A stretch of DNA of 64,000 bases from Ectocarpus siliculosus. Its lineage: Eukaryota; Sar; Phaeophyceae; Ectocarpales; Ectocarpaceae. Below are positions 13,683-38,800 of this stretch, one piece after another; position 1 is the stretch's first letter; the number at the start of each line of letters is the position of its first letter. The stretch is from assembly GCA_000310025.1 (NCBI GenBank), contig FN648398.1, forward strand, positions 106,757 through 170,756, given 5' to 3'. The position numbers were made by a program, and so were the translations under genes. The notes beneath the pieces are model-generated. The model made no database searches and was not told the origin of the DNA. It saw only the letters and a program-made list of their open reading frames with translations.

Positions 13683-15421
13683 GTTCTCCCTGTTGTCTTT
13701 CGATAATTTATTTCTATCTGATCTGTCCGAATATTCTCTCGCTGACCTGTCTCTGGAGTGGCTCCAGCCAGTCTTGTCGCACAGGCGAAGGGTGTTAAAG
13801 GCACCCACCGCGAAAGTCTCCCCGTTGGGGCACCACTTGACAGACGTGATCGTGTATCCCAGTCCTCCGCTCTGGAACATCTGACGACCGAAGCTATCCC
13901 ACACCTGGCCCACGTCAACCAATCAATCAATCGACCAATGAACCAACCAAACGCGCGGGCAAGTTTTTGTTTTTGAAGTGAGCCTATCGTCGATCACGGG
14001 TCTTCTTTCAGATCGTACAGTGCCTTCACAAGAAGAGCACGTGGTACATGTCACTTTACACGCTATATATCTTGCATGCGGCAGGTGGGCAGACTACAGT
14101 ATTCCAGGCGGGTGCGACCACTCTCTCGCTCGTGTAAGTGATTACGATGATTAGGGCGGACTTATACTGCTGAATATTGTAACGTAGACGAGCAGGATCT
14201 GTTTGACTCAATGTGATTGGTGCTGGGCCTTGCTCTTGTTGAGCGTTGGAAGGGTGAGAGAGAGGGCTCACGCTCTCACGCTCCCCTCTCTCCAGACTGC
14301 TGTTCCTGTCTATCAACTGGTCAAACAAGATCTACGATCTACTACTGTACGATCTATGTACACAGTAACCGCAGGTGACACAAGATACCACACCCCCTGG
14401 ACCGTTTTTCCAAAGCTCCACTACTCCACGAAGAAGAAGATGCCAAGCCATATTGATGTGTTTTCGGCAAGATCTCGGCGGGATTGTTCCTACGCTGCCA
14501 TTTTCGGCATTACCACTCTTTTTGCTGTGGAGTACAGTAATCAAGCGTTGAAAATCGGTCCGGGGGTTTATGGTTTCTTGTGGTAATGTAGAATGCGGCG
14601 CAAACACGCAGACCGCCCTGCTGACGACGCCAACCGGAACCTCTGGGCTCTTGAGTACTGCTGTCCTGTGGATGGTATCTGCCTATCTATGTATAGTGTG
14701 GATGGTGTCTGCCTATCTATGTATACCAGATCAGCCGGTACCCGTCACACATGGACTGAAAAGCCTACGTCCACATCCAATACGATCATACTCGGGGCAA
14801 TGGCAGCAGCAGTATGTCAGCTGTGTCACCTTCGTGTCTACAGCGCGTCTCAACTTCGACTCGCTGCGGATCGCAGGAACAGCCCGTTTTGGCGCAGACC
14901 AAAATACCCCGGTTTCCACAGGCGCGAGTGTATAGAAACCTTCACGGCCTGGTCGCTAAGATCAAGTGTTAGTATCTGTTGTAATCAGTGTGAAAACTGA
15001 TTAACGCTCATTTGAGTGTCATTTTCACACCTTTTTTTGAAATCGCCGGGTAGGCACTGCTTGCAGTGTTCCGGCTGGATCTCCTTGGCACTCAACTACA
15101 GCCTGTATTTGTGAGGTCCGTCCCCTCTCGGGGACACAAACAACACAACCAACCAACCATCACCCAACCGAAAACAAACAAACCCAAACAAAAAAAGAAC
15201 CCATAGCACAAGAAGCAACAGCTTCCAGTCCCACCCGAACTAAACCGCCCATCATCCATTCGCGTGTTCGTTTTGGGATGCATATGCTAAGTGAGCGTAG
15301 AGTTGCGTTGCCAACGACGTCACATACATACGCAGCAAGCGTACATACGTACATACATACATACATACATACATACATACATACATACATACATACATAC
15401 ATACATACATACATACATACA

Positions 15422-15452
<31 letters not shown>

Positions 15453-18400
15453 GTACATACATACATACNNNNNNNNNNNNNNNNNNNNNNNNNNNNNNNN
15501 NNNNNNNNNNNNNNNNNNNNNNNNNNNNNNNNNNNNNNNNNNNNNNNNNNNNNNNNNNNNNNNNNNNNGGTGGGAGGGTCGCAAGCGAACACCTCCCCGG
15601 AAAAAAATTATGCGGTAGAGATACCCCCGAAGGAATATTCTCCAGGGATTACAGCACTCCAGGGTCTAGCCCAGTGCAAGAGCCTGCCCCCCCTGTGGTC
15701 ACCAGTCGTGTTGACCACTGGCAAGCCCCCGCCAGGTAAGTATACCGCGTGTCAGTGTGTAGAGCGTCGGTTTTCTTTATATATCGTCAACCGTCCTAAA
15801 CTCACCAATTTGGACTGCGCCGACATGATGCAAACAAACAACAACCGTTTCTCTGTTTGTCTGCTGCAAACTTCCTAGCAATTTTGCTTCGTGTATGCGA
15901 GCTTGCCGATGAACCAGTTGGCGAGGCAATCTTGGTGGTAACGGTGCTGCTGCTGTAAGTTTACGTGCATGTATAAAGCAGTGCGAAGTTTGAATTTTTT
16001 GCATTGTGCGTTATGTTGGCGCAGATCAAATTGGTGAGTTTTTCAAGGGAGACTGTATATAAACCGCCGGCACCCTGAAACCACCAGACAATCTCCGATC
16101 CTCTCGCATCACGAACTTCACCCTCGCCTTTTACTAGGATGAACCGTGCGGAGAGGATCCTGAAGGAGTATCAGTGATTTTTGACCCCACTCGTGGGGTT
16201 AAGAAGGACCACCGCGCACGTGCCTACCAACATACACACACCCCAGCCTCAACCAACACCCACAGCGACACCGCACAAAAAAACAACAAAACAAAATTGT
16301 TTGGACGCACCGTACACAGCAGACAGACGGCACAGGAGCACATACATAGCGTGACCTCTGCGAATTGCGCCCCCCTCCTTCCTCTGATGTCTCTACAAGT
16401 CATGAAACATCACAACAAGACGTTCTTCTGTCCGTCACCCCCGCCCGACAGCGTCCATCACACTTAGTAATTATACCCCATAGAATAACAGAAACCTTTG
16501 CTGACACCGACGTTTGGCGCAGACCAAAACACCCCCCTTTTCAGGCTTGAGTGTATAGGAATAAAACCTGGCACGGCTAGAAAGGCATACCTTCTCGGCC
16601 TTTTGGCTAAGATCATGTGTAGTATCTGTTCTAATCAGTGTGAAAACTGATTGACGCTCAATGAGCGTCATTTTCACACCTGTTTTTGAAATCGCCGGGT
16701 TCGCACTGCTTGCAGTGTTCCGGCAGGATTTCCTCGGCATTCCACTACCGCCTTGTGAGGTCCGTCTCCTCGGGGACACAAACAACACAACCAACCAACC
16801 AAAAAACAAAACCCGCACAAACAAAAAACACGATCATCAGCACGAGATGCAAACAACTTCCCACCCCCACTAAAACCGAATAATATCACTTGTGTCCGTT
16901 TCAATGTGCATATGTGAGTTTGGGTGTTGTGGTGGCTAATTAAGTGGTGTTCCGTTGTCGCGCGTACTGCTGTGTTGTGTTGTGTTGTGTTTTTTTGTGT
17001 TGGTGGGAGGGTCGCAAGCGAACACCTCCCCGGAAAAAAATTATGCGGTAGAGATACCCCCGAAGGAGTATTCTCCAGGGATTACAGCACTCCAGGGTCT
17101 AGCCCAGTGCAAGAGCCTGCTCCCCCTGGGGTCACCAGTCATGTTGACCACTGGCAAGCCCCCGCCAGGTAAGTATGCTCGGGAAGACAAGCGGCGGGGT
17201 TTATTATATATGGTCAGCCGTTCTAAACTCACCAATTTGGTCTGCGCCAACATGAAAAATGCGGCACAAAGCTACGAAATCAGCTGCGTTAATAGATACA
17301 GGCTGCGTGCCTGCTGTGTGTGCACGCATGTTTCGTTCTCCATTGGTGCGTGAACGCTTACCCGATAAGAGCAATCCTCTCCTCCAGAGAGCAGCAGGTC
17401 GTTCACCATATTCCAGTCCACGGCGATCACCAAGCCTTCGTGTGCCGGCCAACGCAGTTGCTTGCGTCCTGCCTGTAAACCCCAAACCCCCAAAATCGGC
17501 AAAAAAACAAAAGCTCGTCTTGATAATAGTTGTCCGCATGAGATGGCCCGCACAATTCGCTGCGTGCGCGCGAGAGCGATTGAGAGATAAGGAGACAAAA
17601 GGTCGCGAGTGGCTCGAACTCCAGCGCCCCCTTTTCACGGAACAGACGATAGGGGCCCTTGTCCTGAATTGCCTGGAAGAAAACGGACAGCATGGAGCAT
17701 GATTGCCGCCGTAGCACCGATGTATCCCACACACTGTACACTGCTGGGCGCGGCCAGCATCAGAGACAGACCCACAACAACGTGCTGACTGCTGCTTGCT
17801 GTGCGGCTCGTACGGCTGCTGGACTCTGCTACGCTGCTGATGCATCCAGAGCAGTAGTACTACAGAAGATAGCAAGTCGAAGCCAGCAGCACGGGGTAGA
17901 AACTGAGGGCCTCGATAGCTCTACTCGATGCATACATTACGACGATGTGTGCGTGCTGTTGGATCCGCTTTGATCCCTGCCATTTATCCGCCATCCTGAG
18001 ATGATGTGGCAGACAGCATCAGCAACAAGATCTGTAAGATCACGGCCGCGATATGCGTACGGTAACATCACGGGGATACGACATTTTGTTTATTGTGTGT
18101 CGTGTGGGTGCACTCGTGCACAGCAACCGCTAGCAAAAAGTGCGCAAGGGGGAGACAGATTTGTTCTCCGAAGTCGAGCGCTCACTCGCGCGCCCTCCCA
18201 GTGGCAGTGACGACTGAATCCGACAGAAGAAGCAGTTATTTTACGATCACTGCTGACTGTGTAAAACTGTAGTTGTTGATTGAGCACACCCGATGTAACT
18301 CTTGTCTGTTGCAATGCTGTAGGGACAGCGTTGGGCATGCACTCTGTACAACCAAGTGGGTAGAGTGCAGTACGGCGGGCACTGTCTCCACTTTTCCTAT

Positions 18401-21400
18401 GGCAAAGTACCGCAGGAAGGGAAGGTAGAGAGGGGCTCTTCTGTGTGACCACGGGTTGGGAGTAAACGGCACTAGACTTCGTGCAGTGAGCGCTGATTTG
18501 AAGTGAAGACAAAAAAAAAAAATGTTGAACAATCTACCGTATATGACACAAGATACCACACCCCCTGGACCGATTTTCAAAGCTCGATTACTCCACGACG
18601 AAGAGGATGCATAAATGAAACAATACGTTTTCGAACAGCTCTCGACGAGACGGTTCCAACGCCGCCGTTTTCGGCGCTGTGACTCTTCCTGCTGTTGAGA
18701 AATCGAGCTTTGAAAATCGGCCAAGGGGGTGTGTTATCTTGTGTCATATACGGTACCCGGGTGACACAAGATACCACACCCCCTAGACAAATTTCTCAAG
18801 CTCGATTTCTCCACAACACACAGAATGGAGGTGCCGAAAAAGGTAGTTTGTGGGCACTGCTGTCTTGTCCAGAGCTTTCCGCCAACGTCTCGTTTGATGT
18901 ATGCATCCTCTTCGTCGTCTAGTACTCGAGCGATATAAATGGATCCGGGGTGTGTGAATACTCTTTTTCACCTGCGGTACAAGTCTGCATGTAGTCTATC
19001 ATCGCTGTACCGAGGAGGGGGGGCGCAATGGAATAGGTTGTGTAAGATATCACACCGAGTGTGCTTTGCTCAATCAAGTTCTCCACGACGAAGATGATGC
19101 CATGGCCAAAATGATGAATTGTCGGAAGCTCTCAACGAGACGTTCCATTGCCGCCATGTTCTGACACCGCAACTTCGGCTTTGCAATAGAGCTTTGAAAA
19201 TCGGTCCAGTTGGTGTGTGTGGTGAAAGAATCTACTTGCAGCAAGTAAGTGTCGCTGAAGTTCTTGCCAAATGGAGGTTCCCTGACGACGCCACCCGCGG
19301 GAACAAAGCTGCAATTCTTTGTACATTTCTTCGTGTAAAATAGTCAGCGACACAACCGTACCGTTGATCTTTTCTACGGTTGAGACCCTCTGTCAATAGT
19401 CCTTCCAACTCAAAGAGACTACTCCGTCACTGGTGTTTATTCCAGGTGTTTCCAAACTGCGTCGCCGACAACTGCGACATCAGATTCTGTCTCACCCACA
19501 TCTTCACCATCGGATTCTGCGCGGGGCCGGCTGGCGGCATGTGAGGGGGTTGATATTCTCACCACAGTACTACTGTGCCACCAAGAACATGCCACCAAGA
19601 ACATGGCTGTTCATGGATTACTTGTCGATGTACAGCAACAGCAGCAAACATGAACTTATGGGTGCGTCCTTCTTGTCTGTAGTGCTGGGCAGTGTGCGTC
19701 GGTGGTGCTTGCTTATTTGAGCCCTTTTTTCCACCCTCGTGTCGTTGTGGGTCAGGGGGTATTTGTGTGGACCAAGGCAAGACAACCTACTCGCCCCCTG
19801 GCATGCTACCGTATTTCTGGCACCAACGAGCCAGCACTGCAGGAAATGGCTGAACCAAATGCACGGTAGACGCCGATGCTACGGTAGTCGCGGCAGGCTA
19901 CGGTCTACTCTCTGGGGTGTATTGCTGTGCGTAAGTGGGGACGCCGTGTGGTATCGAGGCGTCCCCCTTGCCCAAGAAGACGCACAGATTCTTCGGGATC
20001 TCAATGAAAGAGAGAAAAAAGAGAGATCAGATTCTCCCCCAAAAAACAGCAACACCCGGCGCACCCGCCCTCCCTTGGCGGCCGGTACCGTGGATCTAAC
20101 CGTGGGTCTAACCCTTCTGCGGAACACACGATCTAACCCTCTTCCGCACAACACACACCCACATCTTGGGACAAGCAGCTTGGCAATAAAAAGAGAGGCG
20201 AGTATCTTGGATACAGAGCGGGGTTGTTGGTGGCGATAGGTATGGGTTGCCCGTGCTTGAAATAGTGCGGGCCGGGAGCACTGCGCTTGTGGGATATCTT
20301 GTGAGTGCTGTCGGGGGGTAAGATAAACTCGATATGAGCATCTGTGTGGACCCCGGCAGAAGGTCTTAAGGTAGCGGGCAAGCTCGAAGAGCAGGGTTGA
20401 AGGATACCTACATGGACCAATGGATGCAAAGACAGCTGAAGGTACAACATACGTACTATTGGGGACATTCACCTTCGACAACGTAGATGAAAATTTGGTA
20501 GGTAGACGAAGACGATGACAACTTTAGGTGTACGCGGCTCCGAGTGCGAAGGCTGCGAAGGTTCTGACATCAGGGCGACTCAATTATGAATGTGTGTCGA
20601 TCCATCGCGTGCACCCGCGCTGTGCCAAGCAAAGCCAAAGAGCGAAGCTCAAAACGATACCTGACGAAGCAGCCATAATACTGGAAAATCAACAGCTTCT
20701 AGTCTAGGACCTGCTGAGTCAAGACGTAATACTAATACACAAACAGACACAACACAGTGGTTGATACAAGCAAGAGCATTCCTCGACTTATGACAGAGCA
20801 AAAAAGCATGGCACGAAAACCGTTGTGCTGAACGCATTACTGACTTCGACCGTGAGCATCATGCGGTCGAAGCAACATTTTGCAAGGCAGAGTTGAGCAC
20901 TTTGCACAACACGCACACGCCTGCTTTCCGTTACCACTTCCCCTGCAGCCCAATACCTGCACTCTCGTGATGCCTAGATCGCACTAGACACAGCAATAAT
21001 AGCGTAACACGCCGATGGGGATATCTTCTGTGACTGGACTTATTAAACCTCAACAGCTAGTTGGAGGTCCTATCTCAGTGATTATCTCGATAACCTTCAC
21101 CATGATCTGACCCAACTGACCTGTACGCCCTTGATGGCTAGATCGCGCCCGGCTCCCACCACCACTGACTCCGAGTCAGGACTCCAAGCGAGCGCGTACA
21201 GGCTGTGACCGGTTTGCATCAAGGTGGATCGCAGATTGCCAGATCTCGACCAGATCTGCGAGCAAGGAAGGGGCGATACACCACGGTTGCGACGGCGAGG
21301 GGGGAGGGCTCACTACTCTGAGTTTACGTTTGCGAGTGGGGGGGCTCTGTGGATTCCTGACTTTGGTTCGAGTTGAACAGAGGACACCCAACCGAAGATT

Positions 21401-35800: not shown

Positions 35801-38800
35801 GAGGCGTGTCCGGGTGGCGGTGGCGAAGCAGCAGCAGCAGCCGCCGCCGCCGCCGCCGGCGAGAAGGCCGGGCGCGACGCCTGCGCGGACTGGCTGTTCG
35901 GCCCTCGACAGGCCGCCTGGCTGGCGGCGGAGACGGCGCCAGCCGGGGAGAAGCGGGACCCGGCGTCGGCGCCGCCCCCTGTGGCGACCGCCGCGGTGGT
36001 GTCGGCGGCGTGGCGGGCCCTCGACGGCGCTCTCTCGCCGGCGACGGTGCTGGTGGCCTCCAACGCGGCGCGGGGCACCCCGTTCTCGTCCGTGTGGGCG
36101 CGGCCGGACAAGCTCGTCTGGGCCAAGCAGGCGAAGAACACGTTCTGGCCGGCCATGCTGCTGTGGGGCAGCGGCACCACGGCGGCCCTCAAGGAGGTGA
36201 ACATGGGCAGGGTGCCCCCAGCGTTCCGGGAGGAGCTCGAGAAGCAGGTGTGCGTGTATGAGGTTTTTTAATTGTTAGCATCGACCGCGCTCACCGGCTG
36301 GCCAATGAAAATGCGTCGGTGTGCGTGTGTGTTTATTCATAAGGTAGTTCGGCACGACCGCCTTGACCAAACCGGGCGGCCAACGAAATTTACGTCAGTG
36401 TCAGCGTGCAACAATCGAGGTACTCGCAAGAGGACCAAGCTTCTGGATGGGTGTGGGCGTGGGTGTCGGTGTGTTTTTTTTTTTTCTGGTGTACTGCGAA
36501 AAATTATCACTGTCCTTTTTTGCTCAACGACTCGGTCTCTGCCGTGTCCTCATCGCCCTTTTGCATGCGCTTCACGAGAACCTTCGATAGGCCTGATCGA
36601 TCACCGGTGTTGGCCCAATCACTCCCAAAATGTGGATCCCATCTGGGCCGTGATTATCGGTAGGTCCCGTGCAAGACCCCCGGCCCACCCTCTCATATCC
36701 TCGGCGCACTATTCCCTCTTCTTTTTTCTTTTTTTTGTTGCTGGTTGCGGCGCAACAGGCGAAAGGAACGAAGGGAAACAACAGAAACGGCGCGGTAGTG
36801 GAGTTCTTCGGATTGCATGAGTTCGCCCTGCTCAAGCCGGACGCTCTGAGGCCACTCTCCACCCTCGACAAGAGCCCAAACAAAACGGTGCGCGCACTGT
36901 TGTCATCTTGGTCGGGATTGCCCACCGGTACCCAAATCGTTGACCTATTGAATCGACGCACGCCACCGGTTGTTTGTTTAGTTAATTAATTAGGGAAAAA
37001 TTATTTGTTGTTATGGACGAGTGAGCCACGCTGCGATGAAACCCCTACGACGTACCTGTGCTGAGAACACGGCATTTTTTTTTTTTGCGCCACCCCCGGT
37101 TCACGGAAGAAGAGCTGTTAGGATAGCATTTTCGAATTCCCGCATACGAGCATGGTGTTTTCGTGCTCGCCACTGGCCTGCGGGCACGTTGCGAGGGCGT
37201 GCGAGTTCGGCGTGGGAGGAGGTTTGGCGATGCGCCGGCAGCTCCCGCGCGCGTGTTTTCGCATGCACTGCCCTGTGTGGCTGAAGAGGAGGCGTGGACG
37301 TACGTTCCCGCGCTCGTCATATTTTCTTCATTATTTTCATGCTAGGTTGCTCTTGGTGTTGTCGTTCATGTTGCAATATGTAGCATCAAAGATCATGTTC
37401 GTTGACATGTTCACCGCTCCCCCCCCCTTCCCCCCGACCACGTGTCTGTCAGGTGTCGAAGAATAAGCGGTGGGACCCAACGATGGAAGAGGCTAGGAAG
37501 GCCGTGGTCAACCTGAGGGATCTCGAGACATCGATGTACATGCCGCAGCCGGAGCCCGCAGCAGGACTGAACGGGTTGACGATGGAACCTTCGAGCGAAG
37601 AGGTGGGAACGGTGTTCGGAATTGATGTTTCCTCAGCCATTGACCCGACCTCTCGGTTCTTTCGTCATGCCGTGGTAGTGTTGGAACCAGGCGCTTGCTC
37701 GCGTGAGTTCGAACCTTGGCGCAGCCACGCGATTTTTTTTTTTTTCTCACGGTATGCCTAGAACGAATGTGGCCGAAGTTGCAATAGTTCGTGTGTACGT
37801 AGTTCTGGCTGCATCCGTCTCGCCATTAATTTAAGGCAAGCCCCTCAGAAGAAGAAATTAGCGGAGAAAATTAGAGGAATTCCTCTTCGGTGTGGCGTTC
37901 TCCTCTGTGACCTCGACCGCTGCTTCCGACAAACCTATGGTTGTTGTTGTACATCCAGAAATGTATAGATATAGGGGGGCGTCTAGAACATCCGGGATGC
38001 AACACTCAACGCACACACAGGCATATTTGAGTTGCGGCGTTTGTCTTCTTCCTGTTGGTGGTACTACATGACCAGGCACAACAAGAAATCACAAGTACGT
38101 TTCCTCCCACATGACGCCGATCCTACACGCAGTGCGTACTCTATCTGACCCCCCCCCCCCCCCCTCCCTTCACATATTAAAGCTCCACCAGACGGGGACA
38201 CCGGCCTCCGACACCGATACCTCTAGCGGGGAGAGCACCCTCGAATCGGACACGGAGTCCAACGCGGATTTGGCGTCGCCCCCCACGGCGGAGTGCTCCT
38301 CCTCCTCCTGCTCTTCCTCCTCCTCCTCGCCCTTCCCCGCTCCTTCCTGCACGGCAGCCGTCGCGGGATCGGCGTCGTCGGTAGGGGGCCCGCACCGAGA
38401 CTCCCTCGGCGGCGGGGGGGCTCCGTCTTCGCTGAGGGCAATGTCTCCGCCGCCGCCCCCGACGCGAGCGACGCTGCTTCTGTTGTCAACGGGCGTCTCT
38501 CAGCAAGTTGTGTGACACACACCGCCCGCTGTTCTACATTTTACTCGTGTTGTTTCATTTCTGGCCCGCAGACCACAGCGCTCTCTCTGGCTGATTTGCC
38601 GTGGGTAAAAAGTGGGGAGGCTCATGTGGTTGGTGTGTGCTACGACGGGGTGACCGACATNNNNNNNNNNNNNNNNNNNNNNNNNNNNNNNNNNNNNNNN
38701 NNNNNNNNNNNNNNNNNNNNNNNNNNNNNNNNNNNNNNNNNNNNNNNNNNNNNNNNNNNNGCGGCGGCGTGGCCGGCAAGCCCCGGGGGCCGGTGAAGCG

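Follow-up and report, generated by a model that had tools for sequence, protein, structure and literature searches.

The stretch of DNA analysed here, 64,000 nucleotides of contig FN648398.1 from the brown alga Ectocarpus siliculosus (hereafter the window), carries five genes for spliceosomal small nuclear RNAs (snRNAs) within a single intron of the gene for IFT80. A search of the whole window with the Rfam covariance models (cmscan, gathering cut-offs) returned, in the order degenerate U2, U1, U5, U2 and U1, end-to-end matches above the cut-off for all five genes and no further match at the gathering level. These scores bear out the identities, the order and the copy numbers that a first-pass annotation, made from the letters of the sequence, had assigned, as well as its strands: both U1 genes run with the host gene, and both U2 genes and the U5 gene run against it. 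The intron that holds them is bordered by GT and AG (CGG/GTAAGC at 17362/17361 and CAG/GTGTGG at 13905/13904). The best match of the exon upstream of it is IFT80 (PDB 8bd7_I), residues 169-212 (E 2.4e-12), and that of the exon downstream is the same protein, residues 211-259 (E 3.1e-18), so that the residues encoded by the two exons adjoin in IFT80. Other IFT80 pieces (residues 1-50, 49-101 and 267-304) lie in the correct order around the intron; those for residues 102-132 and 129-174 are also in order, being short WD40 pieces for which other WD40 proteins score above IFT80. The 52-aa peptide of the downstream exon has a single match in the genome. With these splice sites and flanking exon matches, the intron coordinates of the first-pass annotation proved exact, and the exon order that it had given for both sides of the intron is right.

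The functional sequences of the snRNAs are present, namely the U1 5' end ACTTACCTG in both U1 copies (U1a and U1b, Table 1), GTAGTATCTGTT in the intact U2 and the loop GCCTTTTAC in U5. The degenerate U2 has an additional base ahead of TAGTATCTG and, with 20 nt of flank counted, 31 alignment differences compared with 4-8 in six intact U2 copies; its score is also below that of the intact U2, in line with the earlier call of one intact and one decayed U2. Promoter motifs had likewise been claimed for every gene, and a box resembling a proximal sequence element (PSE) could be mapped for each of the five. We read the degenerate U2 as dead and the U5, the intact U2 and the U1b as working genes that, judged by their sequences, could contribute to the supply of snRNAs, while U1a is probably drifting towards decay. 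Since the PSE-like box of U1b starts 111 nt into the intron, transcription of the host must cross it, and it is possible that this interferes with the U1b promoter.

Table 1 Features of the window and related loci of the genome. Bare positions refer to the window; C and L numbers designate contigs and loci.
Feature	Position	Strand	Remarks
IFT80 intron with snRNA cluster, between coding exons 5 and 6 found	13905..17361	-	3,457 bp, phase 0
IFT80 exon upstream of intron (exon 5)	17362..17472	-	own start inferred from AG
IFT80 exon downstream of intron (exon 6)	13747..13904	-	end inferred from GT
U2 snRNA, degenerate	14936..15126	+	86.3 bits; TATA-like box at -5
PSE-like box of degenerate U2	14889..14903	+	exact
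Assembly gap	15469..15568		100 N, after TACA repeat
U1 snRNA, copy a (U1a)	15572..15743	-	84.2 bits; 4 substitutions from family consensus
PSE-like box of U1a	15809..15823	-	2 mismatches; TATA at -40/-38
U5 snRNA	16091..16199	+	65.3 bits; conserved loop CGCCTTTTACTA, Sm-like ATTTTTGA
PSE-like box of U5	16016..16030	+	1 mismatch, then GGTGAGTTT; TATA at -35/-33
U2 snRNA, intact	16587..16770	+	144 bits
PSE-like box of intact U2	16514..16528	+	exact; TATA at -33
U1 snRNA, copy b (U1b)	17005..17176	-	88.5 bits; 2 substitutions from family consensus
PSE-like box of U1b	17236..17250	-	exact; TATA at -34/-32
U5-U2-U1 block common with sister cluster	15898..17255 vs C479:439242-441003		two blastn pieces
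Group A			window cluster
Group B	C479:439-464 kb		second U1 and degenerate U2 ~14 and 23 kb from core
Group C	C47:369-373 kb		
Group D	C3:2554-2556 kb		includes sole U4 found
Group E	C9:4536-4538 kb		
U6 snRNA, sole one found	C30:2097910-2098015	-	L033; alone
U7 snRNA candidate	C2:4921512-4921584	-	L045; ~70 nt; exact PSE and TATA upstream
Histone 3' ends examined	L093-L111		on C27, C241, C464, C150, C84
X1 sites	L034, L035, L054, L056, L057, L059, L061, L062, L064-L066, L068, L077-L079		
X2 sites	L037, L038, L041, L044, L069-L072, L080		L072 looks truncated
X3 sites	L063, L075, L076, L081, L083		repeat-like sequence behind promoter
Single site L073	C22:524127	-	structured-looking RNA with GAGGAAAG
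Single sites L082, L084	C99		promoter before sequences with ATGATGA

Mixed snRNA gene clusters in the genome

The window cluster is the ordinary snRNA gene layout of this genome, and its address is what is special. The 189-Mb assembly was searched with the Rfam models; as the best candidates were scored, the counts are lower bounds, with at least six U1, at least nine U2 (one below the cut-off), at least five U5, at least one U4 and at least one U6 gene. All 21 U1, U2, U4 and U5 matches found are held by five mixed groups of two to five genes (groups A to E), and a gathering-level scan of the loci around groups B to E and U6 revealed no other Rfam family. The nesting in IFT80 looks incidental, every one of these matches being in a mixed group and the intronic position being demonstrated for the window group only. 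Pfam scans of six stretches of ~5 kb near groups B, C, D and E (E without its right side, B in part and without its outlying genes) gave RVT_1 beside D and sub-threshold matches to AAA beside E and to CD225 beside D, which speak neither for nor against an intron around these clusters. The reverse-transcriptase domain match is found in two frames ~1.5-2.5 kb from group D (locus L030 on C3, at about 3.6-4.5 kb). The first-pass annotation had pointed out that removal of the intron depends on the RNAs that the intron encodes. This is true, but it creates no special loop since the same RNAs come from other loci. For that reason we abandoned the idea of a regulatory loop in which the intron and its RNAs take part, and no observation pointed to a circuit of this kind.

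Groups A and B, 316 kb apart on the same contig, have a duplicated U5-U2-U1 block in common: 15898-16469 is 92.7% identical to C479:439242-439824 and 16475-17255 is 91.9% identical to C479:440251-441003, spacers included in both cases. Groups C, D and E have essentially just the genes in common. The U1 and U5 genes are near-identical among clusters on different contigs, and this near-identity indicates constraint on the families. Selection on the particular copies of the window had been expected to show as better conservation of gene bodies than of spacers between A and B. The difference is weak and not clear-cut (0.954-0.989 for the bodies, 0.915-0.974 for the spacers), so that selection on these copies is unproven, and this weighs against a working cluster. 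It is also what might be expected if the intronic cluster were a dead segmental duplicate of its sister that is no longer expressed, a reading to which one clearly degenerate gene out of five and a second, drifting one lend themselves as well. We consider it unlikely, however, as U5, U2 and U1b combine near-consensus bodies with intact PSE-like and TATA boxes at the standard spacing. The cluster expanded by duplication, decay has set in for one U2 and probably for one U1, and the whole is probably a tolerated passenger of the IFT80 intron.

Further elements were observed in and around the groups. Group D contains an orphan PSE-like box without TATA (C3:2555028, minus strand), and in group C both a U5 fragment and its PSE-like box have degenerated (C47:373549, minus strand). 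Dispersed repeat pieces occupy 14359-14582 and 18401-18814 of the window; 14368-14582 is similar to 18536-18743 (74%) and also to a stretch near U6, and 18401-18473 resembles a stretch in group C (94.5%).

Shared promoter, 3' flanks and polymerase

A survey of the regions upstream of all 22 matches (21 non-U6 genes and U6) revealed a common bipartite promoter. The 15-bp, near-palindromic PSE-like box TTGGCGCAGACCAAA (up to three mismatches) starts at -72 to -82 and is combined with a TATA box at -31 to -40 in 18 of the 21 non-U6 genes, typical positions being ~-73 and ~-33; the three exceptions are all degenerate U2 copies. Half of the 18 genes (nine) have GGTGAGTTT after the PSE-like box, and in the U2 genes of groups D and E the distance from the PSE-like box to TATA is ~10 bp larger, close to one helical turn. 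The sole U6 gene found has no TATA, shows at least six mismatches to the PSE-like box and is followed by an eleven-T run; its promoter is thus of another type. In plants, U6 genes have promoter boxes in common with other snRNA genes.

The 3' flanks of the genes (80 nt, the first 16 nt being skipped for U2) are rich in A and C, with an A+C content of 70-91% in the 17 readable intact genes, whereas the window has 50% on average and 71% at the 99th percentile. The corresponding values are 62% and 49% for two degenerate U2 genes, 90% for the degenerate U2 of the window and 36% for U6. A run of more than three T is found in the 3' flank of none of the 20 readable non-U6 genes. Conversely, all six U1 bodies contain seven consecutive T, a run that would stop RNA polymerase III (Pol III). 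The seven-T runs of U1, the A/C-rich flanks without T runs and the position of U6 outside the shared promoter lead us to infer that RNA polymerase II (Pol II) most likely reads the cluster genes. Each gene would then be a transcription unit of its own, with a bipartite promoter that is presumably recognised by a PSE-binding factor, and the 3' ends would form ahead of the A/C-rich tract and not at a T run.

Human genes argue in the opposite direction. There, the snRNA genes read by Pol II possess a PSE but no TATA, and the U6 gene possesses both (PMC5493778); as PSE plus TATA recruits Pol III in human genes, the two boxes alone would speak against Pol II (PMC5493778). We nevertheless regard transcription by Pol III as improbable, even somewhat more so than a dead duplicate, in view of the T runs inside U1, the missing terminator runs behind the 20 readable genes as compared with the eleven T behind U6, and a U6 gene that lacks the shared promoter. 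In having one upstream box that is common to many small-RNA genes the alga resembles animals with their PSE/SNAPc promoters (PMC5493778; PMC3499247). In human, however, TATA marks U6 (PMC5493778), whereas here U1, U2, U4 and U5 have both boxes and the sole U6 found has neither. A partial search of the open literature on brown-algal snRNA genes, U6 promoters, protist PSEs and Ectocarpus snRNA promoters brought up no description of this promoter.

Two further explanations have very little left in their favour. Release of the RNAs from the IFT80 intron after splicing, in the manner of many animal small nucleolar RNAs (snoRNAs), would agree with the direction of both U1 copies but is hardly credible given that U2 and U5 run against the host and that every gene, like its counterparts in the other clusters, is preceded at fixed spacing by promoter boxes of its own. 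An assembly error at the 100-N gap within the intron, a false join to which the first-pass annotation had still allowed a small chance and which the similar block 316 kb away on the same contig might suggest, is equally far-fetched: the next N run begins at 38661 and U1a, U5, U2 and U1b therefore lie on one gap-free stretch with exon 5, no gap separates the degenerate U2 from exon 6, whose peptide occurs once in the genome, and the sister copy differs in its spacers and gene order. A misjoin at the gap therefore cannot account for the place of the cluster in IFT80. We thus hold it to be very probable that the locus is a mixed snRNA gene cluster grown by duplication, a passenger of IFT80 whose genes are read by Pol II from their own PSE/TATA promoters, and that this promoter is common to a genome-wide set of small-RNA genes.

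Promoter sites outside the clusters and a U7 candidate

A genome search with the pattern TTGGCGCAGNYCAAA-N18-40-TATA returned 74 matches at 53 distinct sites, compared to none for the reversed pattern that served as control; the 15-mer box with at most one mismatch gave 121 matches versus 15 for its reversed control. While 17 of the 53 sites are located within the five clusters, 36 lie outside, all of which were read and sorted by eye into three U3 genes, 15 sites of a type X1, nine of X2, five of X3, three single sites and one candidate for U7 snRNA. The three U3 snoRNA genes (L052, L067 and L074, on C4, C11 and C25) stand outside the snRNA clusters; one scores above the cut-off and two below the cut-offs of their families with E <1e-8. 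X1 and X2 have no match in Rfam and are related, both being built of GTTTGGCTGGCAC...CAG hairpin modules, of which X1 has two repeated ones; RNAalifold found 37 pairs in eight of the 15 X1 copies, three of them with a two-sided change, which backs a predicted structure weakly. Two members of X3 diverge soon after the TATA box. The RNA of the single site L073 is without a match in Rfam, and RNase P or MRP RNA would be a guess. The promoter thus marks a genome-wide set of small-RNA genes that includes U3 and a probable U7 and excludes the sole U6 found.

The U7 candidate sequence is present in one copy in the genome. From the start predicted by the promoter spacing it would begin with the U-rich GGCAAUUUUUCUUUU, followed by the Sm-like AAUUUGUCG and a stable 3' hairpin. 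In animal U7, ~60 nt in total, a 5' region of ~15 nt pairs with the histone downstream element and the Sm site AAUUUGUCU follows directly (PMC7026596); the candidate AAUUUGUCG is identical to it at eight of nine positions. Of 27 histone gene matches, 19 were examined at their 3' ends, and 18 of these show a near-invariant stem-loop, GGTGTT-N5-AACACC, with a purine tract behind it (for example GAGGAAAAATTGC or AAAAGAAAAAC), the layout that is also found in replication-dependent histone genes of animals; the only end without the stem-loop presumably belongs to an H2A variant. Starting 8-15 nt past the stem-loop, on average 11.6 of 15 positions of the candidate 5' end pair with these 18 histone ends, and shuffling of either partner gave none as good in 2000 (means 9.7 and 10.4). 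The duplex energy was reached by one of 1000 and by none of 300 shuffles, the count of paired positions being the clearer of the two measures. Two pieces of the RNA-binding domain of SLBP were found on C9 with 51.9 and 36.5 bits (cut-off 27), the former interrupted by stops within its aligned part, where an intron may lie, and the latter free of them. An Rfam search for the histone stem-loop returned 13 sub-threshold matches, and one (L090) of the eight that were read is located behind a histone gene.

Several observations count against this assignment. Position 9 of the Sm site, an invariant U in U7 (PMC7026596), is a G in the candidate. The Rfam U7 model gave no match to it at E up to 10, and the duplex energy did not discriminate it from 17-mers of U1, U2 and U5, 59 of 417 of which were as low. 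In the minimum-energy fold, part of the 5' region is paired with the Sm site and would have to be opened by a bound Sm ring. Promoter, layout and pairing taken together, we judge the candidate to be a probable U7 snRNA. To our knowledge, U7 is unreported outside animals and U7-guided processing of histone mRNA is an animal feature; a partial search of the open literature for U7 outside animals found nothing that matches. It is on the whole likely, with clearly less certainty than for the cluster itself, that the promoter regulon of this lineage comprises, besides U1, U2, U4, U5 and U3, a true U7 and two or more multi-copy RNA families that are new to description, with U6 outside it, and that the 3' ends of histone mRNAs are processed under guidance of U7 as in animals.

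Known arrangements and significance

An snRNA gene in an intron of a protein gene has a human precedent in RNU4ATAC, which sits in an intron of CLASP1 and likewise has its own promoter; this is a single gene of the minor spliceosome and no mixed cluster. A partial search of the open literature for cases like RNU4ATAC in CLASP1 found no paper. The groups described here combine U1, U2, U5 and once U4, and mixed linkage of this kind has been reported elsewhere. In Arabidopsis, with 74 reported snRNA genes, seven U1-U4 clusters and one U2-U5 cluster are described (PMC545797), and different snRNA genes are likewise found side by side and copied as units (PMC545797); there, however, they are pairs among many more genes, whereas here all 21 non-U6 matches are in mixed groups and one group is intronic (PMC545797 for the plant). 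Fish have linked U1 and U2 genes alongside other U snRNA genes that are present in whole or in part (PMC4696792), a similarly mixed linkage that forms large repeated arrays in place of the five short clusters of two to five genes in the alga (PMC4696792). Euglena, a protist as well, has repeated linked small-RNA genes in families born by duplication, with U3-U5 linkages (PMC2784804); U3 is thus linked there, while in the present genome it lies outside the clusters and yet has the same promoter (PMC2784804 for Euglena). The first-pass annotation had known of no mixed U1/U2/U5 cluster within an intron. Its intronic IFT80 cluster is confirmed, but mixed snRNA clusters as such are familiar from Arabidopsis, fish and, as U3-U5, Euglena. 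What is new are the promoter regulon and the U7 candidate.

In the cluster, nature offers a compact example of essential small-RNA genes that reside within a different gene, itself transcribed. More valuable still, the cluster reveals the snRNA promoter code of the lineage, a 15-bp box and a TATA box at fixed spacing. This code works as a probe, a single search having led to U3, to unnamed RNA families and to the U7 candidate, and tools for such algae may make use of the box to drive small RNAs. If the assignment of U7 is true, the stem-loop, the downstream purine element, SLBP and U7 would occur together in this alga, and U7 would exist far outside the animals, being either ancient or convergent. 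With a real U7, the origin of U7-guided histone mRNA processing would become directly testable in an alga.

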